Shown: in pieces, positions 5,779 to 20,776 of the stretch
Numbering within the stretch: the first letter of the stretch is position 1
Layout: every line of letters begins with the position of its first letter
Source: an uncultured Lachnospiraceae bacterium
GTDB taxonomy: Bacteria; Bacillota; Clostridia; Lachnospirales; Lachnospiraceae
Reading direction: 5' to 3'
Length of the DNA: 33,631 nt
Assembly: GCA_902781895.1 (NCBI GenBank)
Contig: CACZLA010000022.1
Coordinates: 1-33,631, forward strand
Made by a program: the position numbers and the translations under genes
The notes under the pieces: model-generated
The model's database searches: none
What the model saw: the letters and a program-made list of their open reading frames with translations, nothing else
What the model was told of the DNA's origin: nothing

Positions 5779-6975
5779 ATGAATAATATAAAAATGTTTC
5801 TTGTTAGATATGCCGAGATAGGAACAAAGGGAAAAAACAGATATGTTTTTGAAGACATACTTTGTAAAAGAATAAGAAGAAGACTTGAGCCCATGGGTGA
5901 GTTCAAGGTATGGCGTGATTTCGGTCGTATTTATATAGAGGCTTTGTCTGATTATGATTACGATGAGGCTGTTGAAAAGCTTACAAAAATATTCGGAATA
6001 GTTGGTCTTTGCCCCGTAACAGTTGCGGATGAGCTTACTTATGATGCATTAAGAGATGCAACGTTGCAGCATTTTGAAGATACATGCGGGGATAAAGGAT
6101 ATGACTTTTCTTTCAAGGTACATACCAGAAGAATAAATAAGAACTTCCCTATGAATTCCATGGAAATAGACATGGAGATAGGCCATGATCTTCTTGAAAA
6201 ATTCGAGGGTGAAGGGCTTCATGTTGATGTTCATAAGCCTGATGTTATGGTTGAAGTTGAGCTTCGAGGTGAAAACGGATATGTATATTCCAAGATCATT
6301 CCGGGCCCCGGTGGACTTCCTGTTGGTACAAACGGAAAAGCTATGTCGCTTCTTTCAGGTGGTATAGACAGTCCTGTAGCTACCTATATGATAGCTAAAA
6401 GAGGCGTTGAAATGGAAGCTGTTTACTTTAATTCGCCTCCTTATACATCTGCAAGAGCACTTGAAAAGGTTCAGAATCTTGGAACCATAGTTTCACAGTA
6501 TGCCGGTCCAATAAAGCTGCATATAGTCAATTTTACGGATATTCAGCTTTGTATCTATGATAATTGTCCTCATGATCAGCTGACAATAATAATGAAGCGC
6601 ATATTCTTCCAGATAGCCGAAAGACTTGCTAAGGAAAATGATTGCGATGCGATAGTAACAGGTGAATCCATAGGTCAGGTATCATCACAGACCATGCAGA
6701 GCCTTGCGGTAATAGATGCTGCAGTTACCTGTCCCGTATACAGACCCGTTATCGGTATGGATAAGCAGGAGATAGTAGAGTACTCACAAAGAATCGGCAC
6801 ATTTGAGACATCTATAGAGCCTTACGAGGACTGCTGCACAATATTTGTAGATAAACATCCCGTTACCAAGCCAAAGATGAAATCTATAGAAAAATCAGAA
6901 AGTCATCTTGTCGGAAAGGTGGAAGAACTTATAGATAAAGCTGTTGAAACAGCTGAAGTTGTATGGCTGAAATAA
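5779..6975 (+). CDS. thiI: tRNA 4-thiouridine sulfurtransferase ThiI
   Basis: ATP-dependent enzyme that adenylates and thiolates U8 of tRNA; in many bacteria it also supplies sulfur for thiamine. At 398 residues it has the short form of the family. An N-terminal ferredoxin-like region is followed by a THUMP RNA-binding domain (about residues 60-165) and the PP-loop SGGIDSPVATYM (about residue 191), then GESIGQVSSQT and PYEDCCTIFVDKHPVTKP, whose Cys pair matches the sulfur-transfer site. The C-terminal rhodanese domain of the E. coli enzyme is absent, as in Bacillus, so a dedicated desulfurase is expected, and one lies 42 bases upstream. AAAAGGAA precedes the ATG. Confidence 0.96.
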   Translation: MNNIKMFLVRYAEIGTKGKNRYVFEDILCKRIRRRLEPMGEFKVWRDFGRIYIEALSDYDYDEAVEKLTKIFGIVGLCPVTVADELTYDALRDATLQHFEDTCGDKGYDFSFKVHTRRINKNFPMNSMEIDMEIGHDLLEKFEGEGLHVDVHKPDVMVEVELRGENGYVYSKIIPGPGGLPVGTNGKAMSLLSGGIDSPVATYMIAKRGVEMEAVYFNSPPYTSARALEKVQNLGTIVSQYAGPIKLHIVNFTDIQLCIYDNCPHDQLTIIMKRIFFQIAERLAKENDCDAIVTGESIGQVSSQTMQSLAVIDAAVTCPVYRPVIGMDKQEIVEYSQRIGTFETSIEPYEDCCTIFVDKHPVTKPKMKSIEKSESHLVGKVEELIDKAVETAEVVWLK

Positions 6976-7002
6976 GTTATAGTATTAATTTAAAAAAAGT
7001 AC

Positions 7003-7031
7003 TTGCATTTCATTCACAAGTCTGTTATTAT
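7003..7031 (+). promoter_or_regulatory. Promoter of tRNA-Glu
   Basis: TTGCAT at 7003-7008, a 17-base spacer, then TATTAT at 7026-7031. The predicted start falls about 10 bases before the mature tRNA. An exact 8-base inverted repeat, ATTCACAA (7012-7019) and TTGTGAAT (7040-7047), brackets the -10 element. Confidence 0.65.
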
Positions 7032-7049
7032 AACATTCGTTGTGAATAT

Positions 7050-7121
7050 GGTCCGTTGGTCAAGCGGCTAAGACGCCGCCCTCTCACGGCGGAAACAGGG
7101 GTTCGATTCCCCTACGGACTA
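7050..7121 (+). tRNA. tRNA-Glu (anticodon CUC)
   Basis: A full cloverleaf of 72 bases can be drawn. The acceptor stem is GGTCCGT with ACGGACT (G-U at the first pair). The anticodon stem CCGCC/GGCGG (7076-7080/7088-7092) encloses loop CTCTCAC, with the anticodon CTC at 7083-7085 reading GAG. The T arm is AGGGG/CCCCT around TTCGATT and the discriminator base is A7121. CCA is not encoded. The sequence is close to Bacillus tRNA-Glu, but with CUC instead of UUC, so it is probably the second glutamate isoacceptor. A promoter lies upstream and a terminator hairpin directly follows; the 3' end is copied downstream at 7267-7283. Confidence 0.96.
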
Positions 7122-7137
7122 CAAAAAATCAGTTACA
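7105..7137 (+). repeat. Direct repeat copy 1: tRNA-Glu 3' end and terminator base
   Basis: The 33 bases from the T loop of tRNA-Glu through the discriminator and into the terminator 5' arm. They recur at 7267-7298, differing only by one A in the A run. The centres are about 162 bases apart, with module A between them. Confidence 0.9.
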
Positions 7138-7161
7138 CACAAAGTGTGTAGCTGATTTTTT
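7123..7161 (+). terminator. Terminator hairpin 1, directly after tRNA-Glu
   Basis: Arms 7123-7140 and 7144-7161 pair over 18 positions (one G-U) around the 3-base loop AAA; the 3' arm ends in six Ts. The A-rich 5' arm makes it potentially active on both strands. It shares its basal sequence with hairpin 2 (7285-7324), while the apical pairs differ in a compensated way. Confidence 0.85.
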
Positions 7162-7169
7162 AGTATCAA

Positions 7170-7273
7170 GGGAATCGAACAGCGAGACTGCAGCTTTGCT
7201 GCAAGAATGTCCCAGTGGGACATTCGAGTCGAAGCTCGGCCTGAAAGGCGGCTATGCCGCCGGTGGGATTCCC
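7170..7273 (+). other. Structured module A (tRNA-linked triloop hairpin array)
   Basis: Non-coding segment. A closing helix GGGAATC (7170-7176) with GATTCCC (7267-7273) encloses a branched set of hairpins: 7189-7194/7198-7203 (loop TTT), 7205-7213/7217-7225 (9 pairs, loop AGT) and 7247-7252/7256-7261 (GGCGGC/GCCGCC, loop TAT). GACT/AGTC and CGAG/CTCG helices can enclose the first two. Module B repeats the framework with compensated base changes. It could act as RNA (a processed tRNA trailer or small RNA) or as DNA (cruciform or a small mobile repeat); I do not recognise it as a named family. Confidence 0.6.
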
Positions 7274-7298
7274 CTACGGACTACAAAAATCAGTTACA
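7267..7298 (+). repeat. Direct repeat copy 2: orphan tRNA-Glu 3' tail
   Basis: A 32-base copy of 7105-7137 (one A shorter), containing the T-arm 3' strand, acceptor 3' strand ACGGACT and discriminator, but no tRNA body upstream. The bases before it (GGTGG) differ from the tRNA (GGTTC). Such a copy resembles the att duplication left by elements that integrate at tRNA 3' ends, or a module that carries the tail with it. Confidence 0.9.
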
Positions 7299-7324
7299 TG
7301 CATAGCATGTAGCTGATTTTTTTT
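7285..7324 (+). terminator. Terminator hairpin 2, after the orphan tRNA tail
   Basis: Arms 7285-7301 and 7305-7321 (17 pairs, one G-U), 3-base loop ATA, T run to 7324. It has the same basal stem as hairpin 1 (AAAAATCAG/CTGATTTTT) with a different but fully paired apex. Confidence 0.8.
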
Positions 7325-7327
7325 GTA

Positions 7328-7546
7328 GGGGAATCGAACAGCGAGACCGAGATGCGAAGCATCGAGAGAACATCCCGGTGGGATGTTCGAGTCGAAGCCC
7401 GGCCTGATTAAGCTCACGATTCGAAGAATCGTGGGTCTGTCGAAGACAGATACGTTCCACGTAGTGGAACCAAGACTTGCTTGTCAAGTCTTGCAAGCTT
7501 GCGTAGCAAGATTGGTACAAAGGCGGCAGTGCCGCCGGTGGGATGT
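7328..7546 (+). other. Structured module B (expanded triloop hairpin array)
   Basis: Second copy of the framework of module A: GGGGAATCGAACAGCGAGAC (7328-7347), a hairpin at 7351-7355/7359-7363 (loop GAA), a 9-pair hairpin at 7368-7376/7380-7388 (loop GGT), then GTCGAAGC-CCGGCCTGA, and finally GGCGGC/GCCGCC at 7522-7527/7531-7536 (loop AGT) and GGTGGGAT. Relative to A it carries about 110 extra bases (about 7409-7519) holding five more hairpins: 7415-7422/7426-7433, 7436-7441/7445-7450, 7454-7460/7464-7470, 7472-7479/7485-7492 and 7498-7502/7506-7510. Only the fourth has a loop other than three bases. There is no credible reading frame with a ribosome site. Function unknown. Confidence 0.6.
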
Positions 7547-7581
7547 GATAGAGACCAAATGTTGCCTCTATCTCTTTTTTT
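7547..7581 (+). terminator. Terminator 3, end of the tRNA-linked array
   Basis: GATAGAG (7547-7553) pairs with CTCTATC (7566-7572), with an inner CAA/TTG helix, and is followed by TCT and seven Ts (7575-7581). It would end any transcript that reads through from the tRNA promoter. No gene lies between it and the ribosome site at 7669. Confidence 0.75.
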
Positions 7582-7684
7582 GTATATAATGACATAAATG
7601 TCATAGGTCAATATAAGTTCATGCTTGCACGAAAAACTTTATGGCCTACATCATCGTATCTATAATATTAAGGAGCTTATTTAT

Positions 7685-9583
7685 ATGAGTGATGAAAATG
7701 AAGTATACAACGGACCCGAGTCTTTATCACAGGACCCTTCACATCAGGCTTTAATCCCTGAAGAGGAGAAGAAAAAGCAGAGCAGTAGTTCGCAGGTAAA
7801 TAATCCTTTTGCACAGCCTCAGAGTCCATATGGACAGCATTCATCCGGATATCCCGGAAATGTACAGCAACCATACGGTCAGCCTATGAACGTACAGCAA
7901 CCATACGGTCAGCCTATGAACGTACAGCAACCATACGGCCAGCCTATGAATGTACAGCAACCATACGGTCAGCCTATGAACGTACAGCAATCATATGGTC
8001 AGCGTGGGAATGTACAGCAGCCATATGGTCAGCCTATGAATAATCAGAGACCATACGGCCAGCCTGGGAATTCTCAGCCACCATATGGTCAGGCATCAAG
8101 GAGTCAAGTTCCGTATTCGAATCAGAACAATACCTCACAGAGTGAACAGTGGGCTCCAAGACCTCAGAATCCATATGCTGATTCCCGGACGCATCAACCT
8201 GTAAGCAATCCACAGGTTGTACCTAAGCCCGGTAGTACCCCCGGGGTAACAACACAGCAGTCTGAAACGTCGCATGATAATTCACAGCCTGAAAGCACTT
8301 CGCGTGTTTCACAGCAGCCTATGGGTAAACCTCAGATGACATATAATCCGACTCCTGTGCAAAATACGTATCCCCAGCGTCCTGTACCCGGACCGGTGCT
8401 TGATACGGTAAGATCTGACGATAATAAAAAAGGAAAGAAGAAGTTCTGGATAATATTCAGTATTTGTGCCGGAACATTTTTAGCTGCTGCTGCATTAATA
8501 ATTGTATTTGTTTTTATGGCAGGACCTAAAGAAACTGATGGGGCAAATAAACCTGATGATATAGCTCTTGCGTATATTGATGCATACAATAAGGGTGATG
8601 CTTCCAATCTGAAATACTATATTTCAAATGAAGTTAATGATGAAGAGAAAGAAAAATTCGTTAATAATGCAAATAACCTTATCTCATCAGACAAAGAGTT
8701 TGTAAAGGAATATGATAAAACATCTGCTGTGATAACTAATGGTTCTGCATATTCAGAATCCGACAGATATGCCATTTTAACAAAATGGAATTACAAAAAG
8801 GATAAAGCTGATGAAGTAAGAGACCTGACCATGACGGTTAATTTTACAGATTATAATTTTAAAAAGGATGCCGGATCAAGTACTTTTACTTTTAAAGTAA
8901 TGAAGGTGGATGATAAATGGTTTCTTCTGGAGTTTAATGAAGATTCCTATCAGACCTTTGAAGAGGAGTCAGAGAATACTGGTAATACAGTTACCGGATC
9001 CGTGACCGACGACAAAGATGAAGATACTGAGGAAACTACTGAGGCACAGGCTGATCCAACAGATTTATCTGATGATCCCTATTCAAAACAGTTCAGTCTG
9101 GATGGTACGGTATATGTTATTCCGTTTGATTATTCAAAAATCAGCGACAAATATACATTCAGTCTTGAGGATTATGGATATGATGAAGAGGAAGGGTATG
9201 AGCTTGCCCCCGGTGACAGAGTTTCAGGAACTATAGCTCTTTCAAGTGAGGATATGGATAATGAAGTAGATTTCTGGGTTGGATTTGTAAATAACTCGGA
9301 AGAGAAAAAAGATATCAGGGACTGTCAGATAACTTCCGTTTCTCTGGATATCAGATGGTCCAAATCAAAGAAGTATCCTGAATTTATCCTTCCGGGCGGT
9401 ATAACCTGGGGTAGTACAGTTGAAGATGTTGAGGCCGTGTTTGGAAAGCCGGAAACAGAACCATATAGATCCGATACGCTGAAATACTGGGATTATTCTT
9501 ATAAGGATGATAATGGTTACTATATCGAAATTACCATCTATGATGATAAGGGTGTGACCAGAATAGAGCTTAAAGATTATTAA
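7685..9583 (+). CDS. Single-pass membrane protein with Pro/Gln-rich tandem-repeat N-terminus
   Basis: Unrecognised 632-residue protein. Residues 1-250 are hydrophilic and rich in P, Q, Y, N and G, with a tandem decapeptide NVQQPYGQPM (residues 59-138). A basic stretch (KKGKKKFW) then leads into one membrane helix (about 255-280, IIFSICAG...IIVFVFMAG), giving N-inside/C-outside topology. The outer part starts with a helical segment (DDIALAYIDAYNKGDASNL) that recalls DUF4878/SnoaL-like lipoprotein domains. It continues with an acidic linker (about 450-470) and ends with a domain containing GGITWGSTVEDVEAVFGKP, reminiscent of BamE/SmpA-like small folds (inference). I chose the ATG at 7685 because AAGGAG (7670-7675) lies 9 bases before it; the upstream TTG at 7625 has no ribosome site. 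Its neighbours give no functional hint. Confidence 0.8.
   Translation: MSDENEVYNGPESLSQDPSHQALIPEEEKKKQSSSSQVNNPFAQPQSPYGQHSSGYPGNVQQPYGQPMNVQQPYGQPMNVQQPYGQPMNVQQPYGQPMNVQQSYGQRGNVQQPYGQPMNNQRPYGQPGNSQPPYGQASRSQVPYSNQNNTSQSEQWAPRPQNPYADSRTHQPVSNPQVVPKPGSTPGVTTQQSETSHDNSQPESTSRVSQQPMGKPQMTYNPTPVQNTYPQRPVPGPVLDTVRSDDNKKGKKKFWIIFSICAGTFLAAAALIIVFVFMAGPKETDGANKPDDIALAYIDAYNKGDASNLKYYISNEVNDEEKEKFVNNANNLISSDKEFVKEYDKTSAVITNGSAYSESDRYAILTKWNYKKDKADEVRDLTMTVNFTDYNFKKDAGSSTFTFKVMKVDDKWFLLEFNEDSYQTFEEESENTGNTVTGSVTDDKDEDTEETTEAQADPTDLSDDPYSKQFSLDGTVYVIPFDYSKISDKYTFSLEDYGYDEEEGYELAPGDRVSGTIALSSEDMDNEVDFWVGFVNNSEEKKDIRDCQITSVSLDIRWSKSKKYPEFILPGGITWGSTVEDVEAVFGKPETEPYRSDTLKYWDYSYKDDNGYYIEITIYDDKGVTRIELKDY
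7859..8098 (+). repeat. 30-base in-frame tandem repeat (8 units)
   Basis: Eight units of 30 bases, each encoding a decapeptide of the type NVQQPYGQPM: four perfect at the protein level, one NVQQSYGQRG, one more perfect, then NNQRPYGQPG and NSQPPYGQAS; a ninth (RSQVPYSNQN) is decayed. The first units are almost identical in DNA, so copy number probably varies by slippage or recombination. Confidence 0.95.
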
Positions 9584-19902: not shown

Positions 19903-20729
19903 TGCATACAAAAAGAATAATCCCATGTCTGGATGTGAATAACGGAAGAGTCGTAAAGGGCGTTAATTTTGTGGATCTTGTGGATGCAGGGGATCCGGTT
20001 GAGTGTGGAAAAGCATACGATAAGGCCGGGGCAGATGAACTTGTGTTTCTTGATATTACAGCGTCTTCAGATAAACGGCAGATAGTTAGCGATATGGTAA
20101 GAAGAGTTGCCGAAACCGTTTTTATTCCATTTACGGTTGGAGGAGGAATAAGAACCATCGAAGATTTCAGGGCTATACTCAGAGAAGGAGCTGATAAGGT
20201 TTCAGTTAATTCCGCTGCCATAGATAATCCTCAGCTTCTCAGTGAGGCTGCTGATAAGTTCGGCAGTCAGTGTGTTGTTATAGCCATAGATGCACGTAGA
20301 CGCCGTGTGGGAAAGGCTGCAGATCCATCTCTCAGCTACAGCGAGAGTATCAAGATAAATGATGAATGGAAGCCTTCTGACGGTTGGACAGTATATAAAA
20401 ACGGCGGAAGAGTTGATATGGGACTGGACGCCGTTGAGTGGGCTGTCAAAGCCGTGGAGCTTGGAGCCGGTGAGATACTGCTTACCAGTATGGATGCTGA
20501 CGGAACAAAAGCAGGCTATGATATAGAACTGACACGTACTATTGCCGAAGCGGTAGATGTCCCGGTCATTGCATCAGGTGGTGCAGGAACATGCGAACAT
20601 TTTAAGGATGCTCTGGTGGAGGGAAAAGCTGATGCTGCGCTTGCTGCCTCTTTATTCCACTTCAAAGAACTTGAAATAAAGGAAGTAAAAAAATACCTCC
20701 GTAATGAAGGCATTTCTGTAAGATTATAA
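19902..20729 (+). CDS. hisF: Imidazole glycerol phosphate synthase cyclase subunit HisF
   Basis: TIM-barrel enzyme that uses ammonia from HisH to form imidazole glycerol phosphate and AICAR. Catalytic D11 ([14 protein letters not shown]) and D130 (VVIAIDARR) are in their textbook positions. Phosphate-binding segments are [24 protein letters not shown] and VIASGGAG. At 275 residues it exceeds the usual 251-256 because of about 20 extra residues ([20 protein letters not shown]) after D130, in the loop before WTVYKNGGR. The loop is on the active-site face, so it may affect contact with HisH. It begins by 1-base overlap with hisH. Confidence 0.96.
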
Positions 20730-20766
20730 AAATAAGAAAGTGGGGTTCCCCCACTTTCTTATTTTT
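20728..20766. terminator. Bidirectional terminator between hisF and the convergent GNAT gene
   Basis: Perfect 18-pair stem, 20728-20745 with 20749-20766, closed by a 3-base TTC loop and carrying A/T runs on both flanks, so it can end transcripts from either side. It overlaps the hisF stop codon. Confidence 0.92.
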
Positions 20767-20776
20767 ATTCTGTCTT

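Follow-up and report, generated by a model that had tools for sequence, protein, structure and literature searches.

The window, the whole stretch of 33,631 nucleotides from an uncultured Lachnospiraceae bacterium that was analysed here, carries a tRNA-Glu (CTC) gene followed by closely packed hairpins (Table 1). An earlier note on this DNA had listed 13 of them at 7123-7536 as one array of inverted repeats, nearly all closed by three bases. We found it to be made of several parts: two terminators (hairpins 1 and 5), six hairpins (2-4, 6, 7 and 13) that belong to two copies of a module that we call A, and five (8-12) that form a module that we call B. The inner stem of the second terminator (T2) differs from that of the first (T1) on both sides (ACAC/GTGT to ATGC/GCAT). 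The second copy of A (7329-7545) is interrupted by module B between CGGCCTGA and AAAGGCGGC and has lost the direct copy of the tRNA end on its right, and the hairpin that follows it is probably the original terminator of the tRNA gene. Farther downstream, a 652-residue frame (7625-9583, + strand) without a Pfam match contains tandem repeats at about 7840-8080 (CAACCATACGGTCAGCCTATGAACGTACAG).

Table 1. Features of the locus behind tRNA-Glu, in positions of the window
Feature	Position	Strand	Basis
tRNA-Glu (CTC), host gene	7050..7122	+	ARAGORN; Rfam tRNA 63.3 bits
Copied segment D, nt 57 to 3' end of tRNA-Glu, GATTCCCCTACGGACTAC	7105-7122	+	sequence
T1, terminator-like palindromic hairpin belonging to the tRNA gene (AAA loop)	7123..7161	+	sequence
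Module A copy 1, about 105 bases	7170..7273	+	model R1, 112.9 bits
A copy 1, left arm D' (GGGAATC)	7170-7176	+	sequence
A copy 1, core	7177-7266	+	hairpins 7189-7203, 7205-7225, 7247-7261
A copy 1, right arm (GATTCCC)	7267-7273	+	sequence
D, direct copy of the tRNA-Glu 3' end	7267..7284	+	23/23 identical, continuing into the terminator copy
T2, T1 copy whose stem carries paired changes (ATA loop)	7285..7324	+	87% identical to T1
D' of A copy 2, GTAGGGGAATCGAAC	7325..7339	+	perfect inverted copy of tRNA-Glu 7101-7115 (15/15)
Module A copy 2, left part; hairpins 7351-7363, 7368-7388	7329..7407	+	R1, 72.4 bits
Module B, REP-like array of five hairpins, loops GAA, GAA, GTA, CTTGT, GTA	7408..7518	+	
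Module A copy 2, right part; hairpin 7522-7536	7519..7545	+	R1, second half-match (L001:1814-1926)
Distal terminator-like hairpin	7548..7580	+	RNA fold

Scanning loop lengths of 1-11 bases, we found 14 perfect hairpins with three-base loops and arms of at least 5 bases in 7123-7536, 12 of them non-overlapping; loops of 2, 4 and 6-9 bases gave zero, five-base loops one (7471-7493), and loops of 10 and 11 bases one each. Four hairpins had one-base spacers, of which at least two are the same palindromes as listed triloops. The number of triloops expected from 1000 dinucleotide shuffles of this region was 0.38 on average and 4 at most, ruling out chance palindromes. The arms and loops listed earlier, all within these 414 bases, are present and, as had been claimed, exceed what random DNA gives; the 18-base arms reported for 7123-7161 do form a stem, but it carries a mismatch and its perfect inner arms are 7 bases long. 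Across the whole window, 10 of the 23 non-overlapping triloops with arms of at least 6 bases fall in this region, which is 1.2% of the sequence, compared with just 1 of the 81 hairpins with loops of 4-8 bases. The RNA fold of 7040-7600, a check proposed in the earlier note, is far stabler than shuffles on either strand (z = -13.2 and -15.9), and the DNA folds of the first A copy (z = -4.4 and -4.1 on the two strands) and of module B (z = -7.4) are stabler than shuffles as well. Elsewhere in the window, a lone hairpin at 20726-20768, with loop TTC and perfectly paired arms of 20 bases, may be a terminator.

Arrays like module B were found at tRNA-free loci elsewhere in the window's genome (L004-L007, L010, L013), and some of them belong to REP-like elements, e.g. 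TGTCATTCTGAGCGAAGCGAA in L006. The suspicion that triloops might turn up in ordinary DNA is thus half borne out, by B-type arrays away from tRNA genes in the same genome. The converse suspicion, that the array would be absent from relatives, is not: module A recurs in them, nearly always behind a tRNA or tmRNA gene where enough upstream sequence is available. B-like triloop arrays also stand directly 3' of tRNA-Arg(CCG) in L117 (G009), L179 (G065) and L107 (G075). Those of L117 and L179 contain the sequence GAACGAAGTGAG, with A absent from the 150 bases shown, and in L107 the array precedes A.

Searching with the array, we first found partial relatives scattered in its own genome and genus. 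From 11 aligned copies of A and their structure, which comprises a closing 7-bp stem (P1), two short stems and three hairpins, we built a model, R1. A proved to be a single alignable family of 108 positions with scores up to 133 bits. R1 matched 27 of 61 genomes of the genus, at 40 places, and 10 of 299 genomes in a sample of the family, namely that of the window plus a single genome from each of nine further genera. A degenerate pattern of the right half of A picked 115 stretches from a collection of named genomes, and R1 confirmed 76 places in them, 50 in 80 loci and 26 in the other 35 (L301-L335). The 50 were kept from 52, two weak matches in Devosia and Phycisphaerae records (L253, L255) being left out; the other 35 loci also entered the truncation scans, and of their 26 matches 17 were new and form a later set. 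By their titles, the confirmed records among the 80 are of Lachnospiraceae, Eubacterium, Acetatifactor, Blautia and other Bacillota/Clostridia, mostly metagenome assemblies and frequently of rumen origin; records of Lachnospiraceae bacterium AD3010 and G41, which carry A, are not marked as metagenome assemblies. With 39 of 41 matches of one set tabulated (contig-cut L021 and L081 were left out), all 16 of another and these 50, 105 hits reduced to 85 distinct matches, two of which (L001:1814-1926 and L092:975-1090) are second halves of copies interrupted by B (A+B copies). The total is 102 distinct matches, in Lachnospiraceae and other Bacillota records, and we regard the family as solid.

The right-half pattern gave zero matches in viral contigs and a copy of A gave zero in plasmids and phages, on which grounds phage or plasmid cargo was rejected. 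Only the tRNA itself reached the Rfam gathering score in the window, and at E up to 1 every non-tRNA match in 6900-7700 stayed under its gathering score, so a known RNA family was rejected. A coding function was also rejected, the 104-residue antisense frame having no Pfam match at E 0.001, and no gene-bearing versions of A were noticed in the loci scanned. Searches of open-licence PMC papers turned up no description of A. The hairpins behind tRNA-Glu are two copies of this small element of Lachnospiraceae, which is apparently undescribed and probably mobile.

A same-strand tRNA or tmRNA gene lies upstream of A in 86 of the 102 distinct matches (72 of 85 in the first set, 14 of 17 in the later one). 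The hosts of the 72 are tmRNA (27) and the tRNA genes for Ser (15), Arg (9), Glu (7), Gly (3), Leu (3), Val (2), Lys (2), Met (2), Thr (1) and Trp (1), i.e. ten amino acids and tmRNA overall. The tRNA and A are 16-64 bases apart in 62 of them. In the remaining 10 the distance is 120-313 bases; these are second copies, second halves of A+B copies or copies that lie beyond another insert. No tRNA gene was found on either strand within 450 bases of 13 of the 85 matches. Eight of these have less than 200 bases of upstream contig, L079 and L249 among them showing a tmRNA 3' end; L073, L295, L262, L251 and L236 have more than 200 bases, yet no tRNA gene was found. The remaining 3 of the 17 later matches also have less than 200 bases upstream, and 11 of the 16 matches without an upstream tRNA are near contig edges. 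Inspected by eye, A was present at 8 of 50 tRNA-Arg(CCG) sites examined in the genus (50 of 51 places covered). At tRNA-Glu(CTC) (50 of 54 places covered), a complete or B-bearing A was seen at 5 of 48 sites and a remnant at two; two of the 48 sites had at most 10 bases downstream. Empty tRNA-Arg(CCG) sites (L095-L124, L173-L192) often have an open frame close 3' (MARNRKKEVK... or similar) that looks conserved, so that A there parts the tRNA from the gene; by eye, an obvious terminator between tRNA and frame is often missing.

The layout of an occupied site is the tRNA ending in D, a terminator or spacer, an inverted copy of D (D'), GAAC, the core, GGNGG and a direct copy of D. We compared both ends of A with the host in the 72 matches with an upstream tRNA or tmRNA. 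The left inverted copy of host nt 57-63 was exact in 49 and the right direct copy in 59, with 35 mismatches on the left and 28 on the right over 72 x 7 bases, compared with means of 92 and 84 and minima of 74 and 68 when host labels were shuffled 5000 times. Without the two second halves of A+B copies, exact ends numbered 49 on the left and 58 on the right of 70. In a held-out test on 12 of the 17 new matches (two, in L318, lie behind a tRNA whose T-loop was not recognised and three had no tRNA), 11 left and 12 right ends were exact with 1 and 0 mismatches, which 0 of 5000 shuffles reached. This strengthens the claim that A is a family and leaves our odds on the mechanism unchanged. Unusual T-arms are followed too: GTTCAAGTCCC and GTTCAACTCCT of Leu and AACTCCC of tmRNA are copied at both ends, and GAGCCCC of Val/Lys with one mismatch at the left end; an Arg gene with GTTCAATTCCC is matched by the left end of its A but not by the right. 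In 51 of 72 matches the right direct copy stops no more than 2 bases short of the tRNA end. A gap-free inverted copy of full length is found on the left in only 6 of 72, and D' could therefore alternatively have been kept complementary by maintenance of the stem after insertion. Beyond the 7 bases, with gaps allowed, the left spacer scored a mean of 8.9 against the inverted end of its own tRNA and 6.6 against shuffled ones (0 of 300 shuffles). Just 3' of tRNA-Arg in L100 (G067), CAGGGAATCCC stands in place of the A of relatives, as would result if A had been lost and the D' and D arms had joined.

An empty site and its occupied orthologue were found in two species. In G051 the tRNA-Glu gene is followed by its terminator and a gene, and in G058 two 161-base units, each of D', A, D and terminator, lie between the same tRNA and gene. 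This pair shows an insertion in which the tRNA 3' end and terminator were duplicated, and dates the event only loosely, since the terminator stems of the two species differ; the terminator duplication is clear in only 15 of 62 first copies. Tandem A units were also found in L048, L091, L160 and L257. A+B composites with the same junctions occur at tRNA-Glu and tRNA-Arg in the window's genome (G000) and at tRNA-Arg and tRNA-Gly in G048, with a shortened one at tRNA-Arg in G016; in their alignment B is nearly constant and the stems of A differ by paired changes. Copies at Val, at tmRNA and at a third, contig-cut site of G294 are identical over 44 junction columns. Overall, the similarity of junction bases was 0.80 between copies of one genome and 0.77 between copies at the same tRNA type in different genomes. 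This is a modest signal, equalled in 18 of 1000 shuffles, and G294 alone gives 15 of the 27 pairs; whole-core identity was 0.72 within genomes versus 0.69, a comparison blurred by the fast-changing stems.

Copies cut on the right and anchored on the left were seen at at least 14 sites, including L048, L067, L078, L079, L082, L084, L126, L168, L170, L171, L283, L296 and L301, with L022, L126 and L131 sharing one site. By eye, no copy among the flagged rows was clearly cut on the left except the local tandem L249 and the contig-cut L269, the other rows so flagged having a divergent left part or being A+B copies or chance matches. The scan pattern sits in the right half of A and would therefore favour right-anchored pieces. 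L315 was flagged as well, but on its minus strand, at about 2350-2600, two divergent copies of A with full-length R1 matches lie behind a tmRNA with the AACTCCC T-arm, and near them A-like pieces are repeated around an unrelated-looking insert. In L249, at about 200-330, a tmRNA 3' end is followed by a tandem repeat, spaced at about 47 bases, of the right end of A with the start of D. The palindrome GTGAGTATATAGGGACGGTTCTGTTTTACTC and its reverse complement were found at or near a truncated A at tRNA-Glu in two species (L131 in G064, L126 in G075).

The pairing of A was examined in an alignment of 69 distinct copies fitted to the model. Both sides change in 26 of 33 pairs, with 398 double-change cells, and 95.5% of cells pair; the model-free alignment of 11 copies gave 41 double-change cells and one G-U. 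In the stems of A, G-U accounts for 23 and A-C for 22 of 2198 cells (1.0% each), and because an A-C cell is a G-U on the opposite strand, neither strand is RNA-like. As a control, 64 tRNAs from the same loci had 58 G-U and 2 A-C in the 768 cells of their acceptor and T stems (7.6% and 0.26%). Judged from these alignments, the pairing of A looks like one that arose or is kept up at the DNA level, and perfect stems made by fold-back would look alike. Counting only copies where the hairpin in question was found, the three hairpins of A keep a three-base loop in 48 of 61, 64 of 69 and 66 of 68; in DNA, triloops of the form C-GNA-G have exceptional stability. The conserved unpaired bases GAAC, CGGCCTGAAAGG and GGNGG point to recognition or to recent spread. 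The earlier note had proposed either fold-back copying or a system recognising triloops as single-stranded DNA or RNA. These proposals are partly supported: the fold and its three-base loops are conserved, and the copying of ends together with the strand-symmetric pairing speaks for fold-back at the DNA level. The direction was right, but the composite array, the tRNA-linked family and the tRNA-matching ends had been missed.

As for enzymes, reverse transcriptase (PF00078) occurs in 10 of 27 A-bearing and 13 of 34 other genomes of the genus (Fisher p = 1.0), being absent from 17 of the 27, and Y1_Tnp (PF01797) in 17 of 27 and 18 of 34 (p = 0.45), indicating no association in either case. Ten A-bearing genomes lack PF01797, including G017 (100% complete) and G052 (99%), and 7 of the 27, most of them incomplete, have neither. 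Dependence on a reverse transcriptase or Y1 transposase was rejected on this co-occurrence. In 16 of 36 A-bearing genomes, which we chose and whose often short contigs kept the search from being exhaustive, no tyrosine recombinase lay nearer to A on the same contig than about 25 kb (nearest in G005 and G057). The whole genome of G294, with six copies of A, gave one tyrosine recombinase match.

Family, position and ends are observed, and from them we infer the manner of spread. We give slightly better than even chances to the reading that the array consists of two tandem non-coding copies of A, the second cut by B, and that A spreads by fold-back, template-switching DNA synthesis. A strand ending in the terminator hairpin would fold back and copy the T-arm, producing D'. 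Synthesis would switch through GAAC/T-arm homology onto an existing A, copy it, and return through the T-arm homology at the right end of A to nt 57 of the target itself, whereupon the tRNA 3' end and terminator would be copied a second time. Early exits from the A template would leave copies cut on the right, and the same copying would keep the stems perfect. Fold-back with a switch to a donor A would account for D', the duplicated D and terminator, the right truncations, the T-arm specificity and the perfect stems. The terminator is often missing at tRNA-Arg sites, where there is only a short spacer (6 bases in L092), and fold-back would therefore start on the spacer there. Template switching, as outlined by Monttinen and Loytynoja (2022, PMC8794818), yields perfect hairpins and compensatory changes in one step, and the mutations they describe share with A the perfect stems, the two-sided changes without G-U intermediates and the inverted adjacent copies; A carries this signature in its own inverted adjacent copies and in 398 double-change versus 23 G-U cells. 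Such mutation is a local process (PMC8794818), whereas here a specific core of about 90 bases recurs at many tRNA genes, which additionally requires a donor template. Some enzyme that works on A in its folded, single-stranded form may take part. We regard as possible, though on the doubtful side, that A is a selfish DNA hairpin with neither gene nor enzyme that parasitises replication behind tRNA genes through homology to the universal T-arm sequence and with the terminator hairpin as fold-back primer.

It is unlikely that a tyrosine recombinase, crossing over in the T-loop, instead moves A in trans as a miniature integrative element whose direct D copies would be attL and attR. The 3' ends of tRNA and tmRNA genes are the usual integrase targets, and the islands that tyrosine recombinases insert at tRNA genes are flanked left and right by direct repeats of the tRNA 3' end. 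A is bounded in the same way (59 of 72 exact, held-out 12 of 12), the repeat reaching within 2 bases of the tRNA end in the 51 of 72 given above, and the tandem units of L048, L091, L160 and L257 fit this explanation too. However, it predicts neither an inverted, target-specific D' on the left nor a single family at many tRNAs with ends fitting each. Unlike such islands, the A unit has about 160 bases, no gene, an extra inverted end copy and, in the genomes checked, many of which have short contigs, no integrase nearby.

We consider improbable an RNA-mediated element, read antisense and inserted by target-primed reverse transcription, the left-anchored truncations then being 5' truncations. 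One-sided truncation polarity and long target duplications, both seen in A (at least 14 left-anchored sites and, by eye, no clear right-anchored one but the L249 tandem), are typical of non-LTR retroelements. Yet reverse transcriptase shows no association with A and is missing from most A-bearing genomes of the genus, G-U is tolerated on neither strand, and an RNA from another locus would carry the D' of its donor, not that of the target. We assign just as little probability to the idea that A is transcribed by read-through from the tRNA promoter and maintained by selection as a structured RNA or cis-regulatory domain. Strong covariation, which A shares with structured RNAs, the conserved unpaired GAAC and CGGCCTGAAAGG, and the fixed orientation relative to the tRNA would suit this; however, G-U is no commoner than A-C, no Rfam match was obtained, the presence of A is patchy, A is often separated from the tRNA by a terminator, the points at which copies are cut are arbitrary, and triloops are the rule. 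That A is no family of its own, only ordinary REP-type palindromes or decayed terminators, is very improbable: module B and the terminators are of this kind and B-type arrays also occur away from tRNA genes, so the reading stands for B, but for A it is contradicted by an alignable family of 108 positions that was found in ten genera by the genus and family searches and is tied to tRNA genes.

REP repeats are thought to move as folded single-stranded DNA. Module B resembles them, and A, too, has in common with REP repeats and RAYT (Y1), as presented by Di Nocera (2013, PMC3733652), that it is a small palindromic non-coding repeat; unlike them, A sits at tRNA genes with ends that match the host and shows no association with Y1_Tnp. 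Small mobile repeats such as MITEs (PMC10969869, PMC2229807 and the Haloquadratum paper, PMC3119063), as these sources depict them, are like A short and gene-less, with terminal inverted repeats and some target duplication, whereas the terminal inverted repeats of A match the target tRNA and not a fixed element end. A also recalls integron attC sites, which are folded single-strand hairpins with a variable hairpin region, recombined behind a fixed site; the GTTRRRY/RYYYAAC cores of attC were, by eye, not seen in A, and the ends of A are target-specific. A works somewhat like REP repeats, MITEs and att-bounded islands, and fails a defining test of each; we place it in the broad class of small non-autonomous palindromic repeats.

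Termini that match each target on both sides, one of them inverted, do not fit cut-and-paste, integrase or ordinary retroelement models. If fold-back synthesis is the route, each new copy of A is written with the end of the target tRNA itself on both sides, and A would be a mobile element that moves by template switching, a mode of mobility that its target-matching ends would make testable. The equal lack of G-U and A-C offers a simple way of telling DNA-level hairpins and structured RNAs apart when genomes are scanned. For the Lachnospiraceae of rumen and gut, A accounts for the clusters of perfect triloops behind tRNA and tmRNA genes.
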